Virus record (IMG/VR): IMGVR_UViG_3300044302_004367
Coordinates: 1 to 24,428 of that record
DNA: 24,428 nt
Strand: one strand, 5' to 3'
Source of the DNA: a virus
Made by a program: the position numbers and the translations under genes. The notes under the pieces are model-generated. The model did not search any database, was not told the DNA's origin, and saw only the letters and a list, made by a program, of their open reading frames with translations. Position 1 is the first letter of the stretch. The number at the start of each line of letters is the position of its first letter. Of this stretch, positions 19,040-21,434 are shown piece by piece.

Positions 19040-19365
19040 TCTTTATCTCCTTTTTTTGGCGAAGCAAAGCTATGCTGAATAGCCAGCTTTAGCATATAAA
19101 GCAGCCACACAAATACCATTACGTTAAAGCATTCCCAGTAGCTTGCTCCAGCAGGAACAAAGTCCCAAGCTCTATTGGCATAGTCATTTAGCTTCATTAA
19201 GAAAAATCCAGATATAAAAGAAAGTATACCTATCCCAACCAAACCTCCGAAAACTTGACCAAGCCAAGTAACTAGTCCGTTCGTTGGCGCATTTCTTTTC
19301 TTGGTTTCAGTGGTTAACGATTCAAGAACCGCTTCCCACTCTTCTTTGCTTGCCTTCTTACTCAT
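19036..19365 (-). CDS. Small membrane protein, two predicted TM helices
   Basis: A 109-aa protein. Residues 1-28 are charged and soluble. TM helix 1 is about residues 33-58 (WLGQVFGGLVGIGILSFISGFF). TM helix 2 is about residues 78-96 (NVMVFVWLLYMLKLAI). The C-terminus is basic (SPKKGDKE). Size and topology are compatible with a holin or another phage inner-membrane protein, but it is not next to the lysin gene, so that role is not supported by context. AAGGAG lies five bases before the ATG; the gene overlaps both neighbours by four bases, showing a coupled operon. Confidence 0.7.
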   Translation of the reverse strand: MSKKASKEEWEAVLESLTTETKKRNAPTNGLVTWLGQVFGGLVGIGILSFISGFFLMKLNDYANRAWDFVPAGASYWECFNVMVFVWLLYMLKLAIQHSFASPKKGDKE

Positions 19366-19742
19366 GTTTTCTCCTTAATTATCTGATAAATCCACTGCCT
19401 GCTTAAACTGTACTCTCTAGCTAAAGCTGATGCGGACGCTCCTTTTGCATAAGCGATTTTTATTTTATTATTGCGATCTACTACAATGTTCTTTGATTTA
19501 GGTCCCGGCCTTACCGGACCCCATGTCCAACTAGGTACTTTTTCTAAAAGCTTTATCCTTCTATCAGAAAGCAATCCCTGACGATAGCGTGTTCTCATGT
19601 AACTAACCCAGTGACCTAAATTTATCTCTGCGCCATTATCTAAGAACTCTAAGTGTCCTGTTGGTACCAAAGCATCACCATATCTTTCTTGATAAGCTTG
19701 CAAAGCTTCGTAGTAGATACTCCATCTCTGTTCATGATTCAT
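19362..19742 (-). CDS. Helicase-associated (HA) domain plus HTH DNA-binding protein
   Basis: A 126-aa protein. Residues about 5-75 match one helicase-associated repeat: W-x(6)-L-x(2)-Y-x(2)-RYGDALVP, then INLGHWVSYMRTRYRQGLL, then RRIKLLEKVPSWTW. Residues about 88-125 look like a resolvase-type helix-turn-helix (IKIAYAKGASASALAREYSLSRQWIYQIIKEK). HA repeats are small DNA-binding modules, so the protein is likely a two-module DNA binder, perhaps a regulator of this operon. It has no Shine-Dalgarno; a near-consensus promoter puts its -10 box six bases before the ATG. It heads a three-gene operon with ATGA overlaps. Confidence 0.8.
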   Translation of the reverse strand: MNHEQRWSIYYEALQAYQERYGDALVPTGHLEFLDNGAEINLGHWVSYMRTRYRQGLLSDRRIKLLEKVPSWTWGPVRPGPKSKNIVVDRNNKIKIAYAKGASASALAREYSLSRQWIYQIIKEKT

Positions 19743-19797: not shown

Positions 19798-20886
19798 TTA
19801 AGGTAAGCCTATATATTCATGAGACCAACATATTCTAGTGTTATCAGCGTAGTGGTTTTTCCAAACATCATCATGCTTTATATCTGTACGCAATTTTCTA
19901 TTTTTACTAGTAGCTTTCCATACATCTGACTTTTCCCTATAGTTGCCCATACTAGGGTGAGCTGTTCTAGAAAAATATCGCCCTTCTTGTTCTAAGTACA
20001 CTTGGGCAATAGCGTCAGAGAACCTATTGCCTATACCGAGTCCTTGAAAGTCTGGCAGAACAACTGTTCGGTGCTCTCTCCACCCATTCTTAACAGTTCC
20101 GCTTGGGTATCTCATTACCGAACTAAAACCTACTAAGTTTCCTTCCCATACCGCTGCGTAACAATGAGAGGCTTTATTTAAAGAAGAGCTCAGATAGTGA
20201 TGCTTTTTAAAAACTGGCCAGTAGTGGTAAGTTGTTCTGTATATGTCAAGTTGTATTGATGGTCGCCGAAGATACCTCCCAGTATAAAAGTTTCCCGTAA
20301 ACGTATCAAAAACCCAATCAGGTCTCAGCCACTCCAAAATGTCATAATGGCATGAAGCAATAACTATGCCCTGTAGGTTGTTCTTGTCTACATAACGTCT
20401 AAAAGCATTTGATGTTGAAAAAGCAACATCCCTATTAACCACTGATGTGTACTCATCTATCAAAGCCCCACTTTCTAACTGCCTAGCCAAGTCGCATCTA
20501 AACTGCTCACCGTTTGATAACTTATCATAAGGTAAAGTCATTTGTGGTATAGAATTGAATCCAACTGCAGAAAACTTATCAATGCCTTCTTCAGGTGTTG
20601 CAAAATGAGAGATTACTGATCGTTCATGGTCCCACTTGGGCTGCCACACATGATCTGGATTTAGTGATCTTAGTAACGTAGATTTTCCGCTTCCACTAGG
20701 ACCAATTATGGCTCCAATGCCAAACTCATCTGGCAAGGTCGGAAGTTGTTTTATTTCTGTTACGATTTCACCTTCAAAACGAAAATCAAAAAATTCTGCT
20801 AATTTTTCAGTATATTCATCATGATTAACAATTGTTTTAAGCTCAATTGTTTCAGGGGACTTCTCAATTAATTCTAGCTGCTCCAT
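19798..20886 (-). CDS. ABC-type ATPase fused to GNAT acyltransferase domain
   Basis: A 362-aa protein. Residues about 35-205 form an ABC ATPase: Walker A GPSGSGKST (62-70), Q in SIPQM, signature LSNGEQ (123-128), Walker B ALIDE with D144/E145, and H-loop H180. There are no TM segments, so it is not a transporter. Residues about 225-350 look like a GNAT fold with the acyl-CoA loop QGLGIG (281-286) and an unusual Trp/His-rich C-terminus. GNAT-type Mom of phage Mu modifies adenine in DNA; a DNA- or RNA-directed acyl transfer driven or gated by ATP is possible here, but the substrate is unknown. The ATG at 20886 has GGAG nine bases upstream and lies one base after the previous stop. A longer frame from TTG at 20922 is less likely. 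Confidence 0.82.
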   Translation of the reverse strand: MEQLELIEKSPETIELKTIVNHDEYTEKLAEFFDFRFEGEIVTEIKQLPTLPDEFGIGAIIGPSGSGKSTLLRSLNPDHVWQPKWDHERSVISHFATPEEGIDKFSAVGFNSIPQMTLPYDKLSNGEQFRCDLARQLESGALIDEYTSVVNRDVAFSTSNAFRRYVDKNNLQGIVIASCHYDILEWLRPDWVFDTFTGNFYTGRYLRRPSIQLDIYRTTYHYWPVFKKHHYLSSSLNKASHCYAAVWEGNLVGFSSVMRYPSGTVKNGWREHRTVVLPDFQGLGIGNRFSDAIAQVYLEQEGRYFSRTAHPSMGNYREKSDVWKATSKNRKLRTDIKHDDVWKNHYADNTRICWSHEYIGLP

Positions 20887-20887
20887 T

Positions 20888-21250
20888 TTATTTAACTCCA
20901 TAATATTCAATCTCTCTAGCAAGAGATCTAATTTCTTTTACAGTTTGGTCTTTGCCAACTTCTTCAGACCATAAAACTATATCTTCATGTACTTGCATCT
21001 CTATAGCATCCCAACACATAATAAATCTAGAAACAAATTTTCTTGGTACCATATCTATCAGCACATCAAAATCGTCTGATGCAGTTTTTATAGGCATCCC
21101 ACATATAAGCGCTATCGCATAAGGTAATGATATTTCACCATCTTCATTTCTAGGTGCAGAGTCAGAAAGCCCTACATCATGAATTAAATTGGCAAGATGA
21201 TCTAAGTCAACGTAAATCTTAGCATTATTTAATTCTTTAATAGATAGCAT
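20888..21250 (-). CDS. Hypothetical acidic protein upstream of ABC-GNAT gene
   Basis: A 120-aa protein starting MLSIKELNNAKIYVDLDHLAN and ending REIEYYGVK. It is acidic and mostly helical by composition, with no motif I recognise. It is separated by one base from the ABC-GNAT gene and probably co-transcribed with it, so it may be a partner of that protein. It has no Shine-Dalgarno. A promoter (TTGACT, 18 bases, extended TACAAT) ends six bases before the ATG. The gene lies directly after an intrinsic terminator, so its expression may be set both by the promoter and by read-through. Confidence 0.7.
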   Translation of the reverse strand: MLSIKELNNAKIYVDLDHLANLIHDVGLSDSAPRNEDGEISLPYAIALICGMPIKTASDDFDVLIDMVPRKFVSRFIMCWDAIEMQVHEDIVLWSEEVGKDQTVKEIRSLAREIEYYGVK

Positions 21251-21256
21251 ACATCT

Positions 21257-21286
21257 ATTGTAACAAAAAGATGGGGCTCAAGTCAA
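21257..21286 (-). promoter_or_regulatory. Promoter of 120-aa gene, overlapping the terminator
   Basis: Minus strand: TTGACT (21286-21281), an 18-base spacer, TACAAT (21262-21257) preceded by TGT (extended -10), six bases, then ATG at 21250. The -35 box lies in the loop of the terminator hairpin and the spacer covers its 3' arm and T-run. Confidence 0.65.
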
Positions 21287-21299
21287 GCTGAACCCCATC
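21265..21299 (-). terminator. Intrinsic terminator after the nrdJ 3' region
   Basis: On the minus strand a GATGGGG/CCCCATC stem (21299-21293 with 21276-21270, 7 bp plus a few inner pairs) is followed immediately by TTTTT (21269-21265). This is a good rho-independent terminator for transcripts from nrdJ or from the local promoter at 21383-21412. Confidence 0.8.
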
Positions 21300-21376
21300 C
21301 TAGATAATTTGGAAAGTTGATGACCGGCTACATCAACCGAAAATTCCTCCTTCGTGTGGGGTTAGCCTTCCGGTAT
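21265..21376 (-). ncRNA. Candidate structured RNA / attenuator between nrdJ and the 120-aa gene
   Basis: About 110 bases downstream of a TATAAT box and ending in the terminator above. The minus-strand RNA has a perfect hairpin GUUGAUG/CAUCAAC (21337-21331 with 21322-21316). Its 8-base loop UAGCCGGU can pair with upstream GGCUA (21367-21363) or ACCGG (21374-21370), a possible pseudoknot. AACCCCA (21363-21357) is complementary to UGGGGUU (21297-21291), the 5' arm of the terminator, so an antiterminator fold competes with termination. A perfect AAGGAGG (21352-21346) precedes an AUG directly followed by UAG at 21333-21328. It could be a small RNA or a conditional leader for the 120-aa and ABC-GNAT genes. 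I do not recognise a known riboswitch class. Confidence 0.5.
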
Positions 21377-21382
21377 ACAGAT

Positions 21383-21412
21383 ATTATACTAAGGCTATTT
21401 ACGCTAGGATAA
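21383..21412 (-). promoter_or_regulatory. Possible promoter for the structured RNA
   Basis: The minus strand has a perfect TATAAT (21388-21383). Possible -35 boxes 17-19 bases upstream (TTATCC or TTTATC, about 21407-21413) are weak. The start would fall near 21376, just before the structured region. Confidence 0.4.
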
Positions 21413-21434
21413 AACTATTTATGGTATAAGGGTC

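Follow-up and report, generated by a model that had tools for sequence, protein, structure and literature searches.

A previously uncatalogued structured RNA, representing a class that is supported by covariation and absent from Rfam on the sequence comparisons presented here, is encoded on the minus strand of the window, i.e., the whole stretch of 24,428 nucleotides that was analysed and that is itself an IMG/VR virus record. Together with its −10 box it lies within positions 21388–21265, between nrdJ and a small gene, and it is one of 29 distinct copies, about 110–120 nt long, that were found in IMG/VR phage contigs. The class sits in widespread uncultured phages carrying a B12-dependent ribonucleotide reductase. 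Of the functions considered, the one placed first, though tentatively, is that the RNA may act in cis as a conditional terminator that yields a leader RNA of about 110 nt.

Structure and conservation of the RNA

The window copy gives a full match to covariance model R1 (21268–21377, 52.8 bits), and a covariance model built from 20 copies, from which the window was left out, finds it at E ~1e-11. Folding of the region beats dinucleotide shuffles (z = −2.65, 2/200). On the minus strand, the −10 box TATAAT of the RNA promoter (21383–21388) is followed by the first pseudoknot strand, ACCGG (21370–21374), and by the antiterminator strand AAGGCUAACCCC (21358–21369), which lies within the pseudoknot loop and overlaps a GGCUA segment (21367–21363) and an AACCCCA segment (21363–21357). 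The Shine-Dalgarno-like AAGGAGG (21346–21352), likewise located in the pseudoknot loop, is present in 29 of 29 copies and runs into the 5′ strand of helix P2 (21344–21347), which together with the 3′ strand (21311–21314) reads GGAA/UUCC in the window where relatives have GAUUG/CAAUC (GAUUG in most of them). P2 encloses the P3 hairpin, formed by GGUUGAUG (21331–21338) and CAUCAACU (21315–21322) around the loop UAGCCGGU, and this loop holds the second pseudoknot strand, CCGGU (21323–21327). A conserved UAUCU (21302–21306), whose UCU can pair with GGA of the Shine-Dalgarno-like segment in the antiterminated fold, precedes an intrinsic terminator hairpin of 14 bp (21268–21301) with a T-run to about 21264. 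The terminator is among the two strongest of its region; the U-tract behind it is weak in some relatives. The TATAAT box, the hairpin, the segment complementary to the terminator arm and the terminator with its T-run had all been pointed out in an earlier note on this DNA, and all are present on the minus strand.

The same note proposed a search for compensatory base changes in relatives; it was run and such changes were found, so the structure was not refuted. The 29 sequences were aligned on P2, P3 and the terminator, which favours these helices; in this alignment P2, P3, terminator and pseudoknot together show 96% standard pairs, both partners have changed in 17 of the 31 pairs, and double-change cells number 64 compared with 13.5 in shuffles. 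Sliding the partner strand destroys this signal. The terminator (helix 4) is 99.7% paired, and double changes occur in 9 of its 12 pairs. The pseudoknot (helix 1; 96% of cells paired) is absent from the model and was predicted independently by RNAalifold from the same alignment; its core hardly varies, and a single pair shows a compensated change (C-G to A-U). The earlier proposal that the P3 loop can pair with upstream segments of the RNA thus holds for ACCGG:CCGGU, while the alternative GGCUA:UAGCC pairing was rejected, since it is not conserved across copies.

Distribution and neighbouring genes

Four kinds of query were used against IMG/VR: the downstream protein, the ABC-GNAT protein, nrdJ and a DNA pattern. 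The search with the downstream protein is the unbiased one among them; all 42 loci that it found carry the RNA immediately upstream, and it added lineages that had been missed by earlier RNA-based searches (L093, L112–L115 and L117). Each genome searched contains a single strong match, i.e., one copy. When the DNA pattern was used without the AAGGAGG requirement, model matches above background were family members only, and every one of them has AAGGAGG. WhiB is encoded in 14 of 20 records, and among 14 control genomes only Corynebacterium was positive, so the hosts are most likely Actinobacteria. The carriers of the RNA would be phages of mostly marine actinobacteria. Neither a DNA nor a protein search of the annotated phage collection gave direct homologues (one search returned only short, chance-level matches), the downstream protein was not found in bacterial genomes, and Rfam 15 contained no matching family at gathering or permissive thresholds, the best sub-threshold matches being chance-level. 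No paper describing the RNA was found in the open literature, of which coverage was incomplete.

All 29 copies are directly followed by the gene of an orphan protein of about 120 aa, in the window at 20888–21250 on the minus strand. The protein has a predicted all-alpha fold (pLDDT 94) and matches only uncharacterised phage proteins; it has no meaningful Pfam, PHROG or defence-model score and no solved-structure match, and it gives no clue to the signal that the RNA may sense. The gene after it matches ABC-type ATPase and GNAT domains. Its product in the window (19798–20922) is a single protein whose N-terminus gives a partial ABC-ATPase match and whose C-terminus carries a GNAT acetyltransferase domain (PHROG 11143, function unknown). 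Its position behind the RNA is lineage-specific, as a relative in a 128-kb contig lies about 75 kb from the RNA. The small protein encoded at 19362–19742 combines a helicase-associated domain with a Mor/resolvase-like HTH; its gene has a leaderless promoter of its own and is kept behind the RNA cassette in relatives.

On its upstream side the RNA is flanked by nrdJ (23399–21435, minus strand), and genes of B12-dependent nucleotide reduction are thus close to it in the window. The link to nrdJ noted earlier is one of position only, since in several genomes other genes intervene; where a peroxiredoxin gene or another ORF lies between them, the RNA travels with the downstream gene and not with nrdJ. 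It was absent from those nrdJ relatives of 63–67% identity (L037–L041) that were checked, and no significant match was obtained in the nrdJ-bearing deposited records MW202701 and OQ999401. The intervening peroxiredoxin gene (5498–6010 of L018) is found in a subset of the phages; used as a probe, it retrieved one relative of 55%, on a contig of a Pirellulales MAG that does not carry the RNA. Short extra ORFs occur at the same place in L015, L026 and L027, and the first of those in L026/L027 is Cys-rich and zinc-finger-like.

Promoters, operator and antiterminator pairing

At sequence level the RNA has both a promoter and a terminator of its own. All 29 copies have a TANNNT box 6–7 nt upstream of the RNA 5′ end, and all 29 have another one 5–7 nt upstream of the downstream gene's start codon (in the window TACAAT, 21257–21262, 6 nt before it). 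Most copies have a TTG-containing −35-like element inside the terminator loop, which in the window is TTGACT (21281–21286, loop/arm). Leaderless genes mapped in Mycobacterium tuberculosis have a TANNNT near the start codon (PMC3898074), the downstream gene has no Shine-Dalgarno sequence, and leaderless promoters are frequent in these phages. Since the downstream gene appears to have its own leaderless promoter with the −35 box in the terminator loop, classical attenuation of this gene is not obligatory. Elsewhere in the window (24291–24266) and in the long contigs G002, G003 and G006, a leaderless promoter often comes right after a terminator, and such junctions therefore seem general in these phages. 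Upstream of the RNA promoter lies an operator-like direct/inverted repeat with the consensus AGTTGCAATCTGGTGCAAGTTGG, which is degenerate in the window (21394–21416); in a PWM scan of three long genomes it scored highest in all of them, and in two it outscored the next site by a wide margin. A second conserved −10-like element, TATTATA, is seen about 12 bp upstream of the operator in most copies and perhaps gives a second start, for a longer RNA.

It had been noted that AACCCCA is exactly complementary to UGGGGUU (21297–21291) of the terminator arm and could compete with it. The complementarity is exact in the window, but as fixed 7-bp columns it showed no covariation, and the ungapped pairing was replaced by a longer one with one bulge. 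This was revealed by folding the transcript only up to the terminator loop: the L1 segment (e.g. CAAGUAGGCUAACCCCG) pairs with the terminator 5′ arm and loop (CGGGGU-C-UGGUCGCUU), and in such prefix folding the antiterminator forms before the terminator 3′ arm is made. The pairing covers 12–16 nt and is found in 27 of 29 copies, at about −13 to −21 kcal/mol. Since several tests were tried, the probabilities that follow are exploratory. The window alone gave p = 0.03. In a permutation test, pairing with the own terminator was better on average than cross-clade pairing; for the variable part of L1 and that of the arm P was 0.0003 (23 distinct sequences), 0.0014 (10 clade representatives) and 0.0006 (9). 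The control of L1 with the mid region gave P > 0.6, whereas that of the P3 loop with the arm was also borderline (P 0.004–0.09), which makes the signal only moderate. Extension past the CCCC core beats shuffles with a combined p of ~3e-5 over 9 clade representatives that are not fully independent. GRCUAACCCC, the sequence of L1, itself hardly varies, and when the arm is randomised in ways compatible with the terminator, its pairing with L1 is nearly as good in most copies and better in some. The L004/L093 lineage has neither ACCCC nor UAUCU, the two segments that are used only in the antiterminated fold, which counts as a single evolutionary event, and it has all other elements. The idea of a structured RNA with competing antiterminator and terminator is supported across about nine clades, L004/L093 having no antiterminator segment; taken together, the sequence data give the antiterminator moderate support.

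Possible functions and known systems

If the RNA is a conditional terminator, the transcript would begin about 7 nt past the TANNNT box, where the pseudoknot has its base. In the first fold the 5′ end ACCGG would pair with the P3 loop and leave L1 free, so that the terminator forms and transcription stops. In the second fold L1 would pair with the terminator 5′ arm and loop, enclosing P2 and P3, and polymerase would continue into the operon that follows. It seems that only one of the two folds can exist at a time, because in the long antiterminator stack the 5′ strand would be kept well away from the P3 loop. A binder at the strictly conserved AAGGAGG/pseudoknot region might tip the balance toward termination, and the simplest candidates are the 30S subunit or a phage or host protein. 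The strict conservation of AAGGAGG suggests the ribosome as partner. It is improbable, although conceivable, that 30S binding favours the pseudoknotted, terminated state and that scarcity of free ribosomes favours read-through, by which the RNA would sense translational capacity or divert ribosomes to leaderless phage mRNAs. Confidence in the conditional terminator is low, since the downstream gene carries a leaderless promoter of its own and, being devoid of a Shine-Dalgarno sequence, would probably be started poorly from a read-through mRNA.

The conditional terminator is placed slightly ahead of an autonomous, trans-acting phage sRNA because antiterminators tend to pair better with their own terminators and because the two folds look incompatible; with an sRNA the antiterminator pairing would be unexplained. 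Such a pseudoknotted sRNA, which is nearly as likely, would be delimited by its own promoter and terminator and would pair through its exposed loop (GRCUAACCCC...AAGGAGG) with mRNA start regions or with the 16S anti-Shine-Dalgarno, in the latter case as a ribosome decoy that favours leaderless phage mRNAs. It is in agreement with the promoter and 5′ end placed exactly at the RNA in 29/29 copies, a dedicated operator that, in two of the three long genomes, reaches a high score at this site only, the single copy per genome, a downstream gene that would be independently transcribed judging by its signals, the abundance of leaderless promoters and the Shine-Dalgarno-like segment, whose strict conservation extends to copies retrieved without requiring it. 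Against it, there is no conserved target, as complementarity to phage gene starts does not exceed that of shuffles except at one site in one genome, and roughly 40% of the genes in these phages are themselves preceded by Shine-Dalgarno sequences, so that a decoy would hurt them. Both functions are compatible, since a terminated leader can act in trans. One observation is recorded here in its own right: at L138:843 (G003 20843), CCTCCTTATGGGGGATTGG in the −35/−10 spacer of another leaderless promoter complements the L1–Shine-Dalgarno segment at −33 kcal/mol, better than shuffles; no such site was seen in other genomes with the pattern used.

An unlikely reading makes the RNA a leader in which AAGGAGG initiates a minigene of 1–13 codons (mostly GUG-NNN-AUC-GGY-stop), whose translation would control folding or sequester tRNA or ribosomes. 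A start codon 3–14 nt past the Shine-Dalgarno-like segment, with a stop soon after, is found in 28 of 29 copies, and the diverged window (AUG-UAG) and the L004/L093 lineage (MVSA-stop) have replacement AUGs; yet L067 has no start, L017/L021 and L027/L054 have no GUG, indels shift the frame, P2 and P3 pairing explains the codon conservation at least as well, and short ORFs are expected by chance. A metabolite riboswitch proper, e.g. for cobalamin or a nucleotide, is slightly more unlikely: the pseudoknot core with invariant unpaired bases, the antiterminator and terminator and the nearby B12-dependent nucleotide reduction genes would fit, but no Rfam riboswitch matches and the RNA is not upstream of nrdJ, from which it is separated by genes in several genomes. 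The cobalamin switch was rejected, as no Rfam cobalamin model matches and the RNA lies downstream of nrdJ, a position that the earlier note had called unusual for a B12 switch. Least probable is a type III toxin-antitoxin-like module in which the RNA binds the downstream protein: the order of promoter, pseudoknot RNA, terminator and small protein gene and the constant co-occurrence of RNA and protein recall it, but the one RNA copy per genome has no tandem repeats, the protein gene has its own promoter, and the all-alpha protein has neither the ToxN/CptN/TenpN-like fold nor a meaningful family or structure match, so that type III toxin-antitoxin was rejected.

The strict Shine-Dalgarno-like loop, the pseudoknot and the overlapping terminator and leaderless promoter offer testable predictions on transcription or translation control in actinobacteriophages. 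The RNA resembles attenuators and transcription-controlling riboswitches in that a conserved core in the leader region is followed by an intrinsic terminator and a putative antiterminator that would exclude each other; it differs in having no known ligand, leader peptide or Rfam match, in the leaderless promoter of the gene behind it, and in the one lineage without the antiterminator. The 6C sRNA and other C-rich sRNAs of Actinobacteria resemble it in the actinobacterial setting and the exposed C run, but the pseudoknot and the Shine-Dalgarno-like motif are not part of 6C, and the RNA described here has no Rfam match. The segments GUACCGGAAGG and CUAACCCC presumably resemble short, out-of-order pieces of actinobacterial 16S rRNA. 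Type III toxin-antitoxin systems (ToxIN, CptIN, TenpIN; PMC5086642) likewise combine a pseudoknot RNA, a terminator and a small protein gene, whereas here there is no repeat array, the all-alpha protein is unrelated and its promoter is separate. Finally, the leaderless promoters of Actinobacteria (PMC3898074) likewise have a TANNNT shortly before the start codon, and the difference is that here the −35 element sits in the loop of the preceding terminator.
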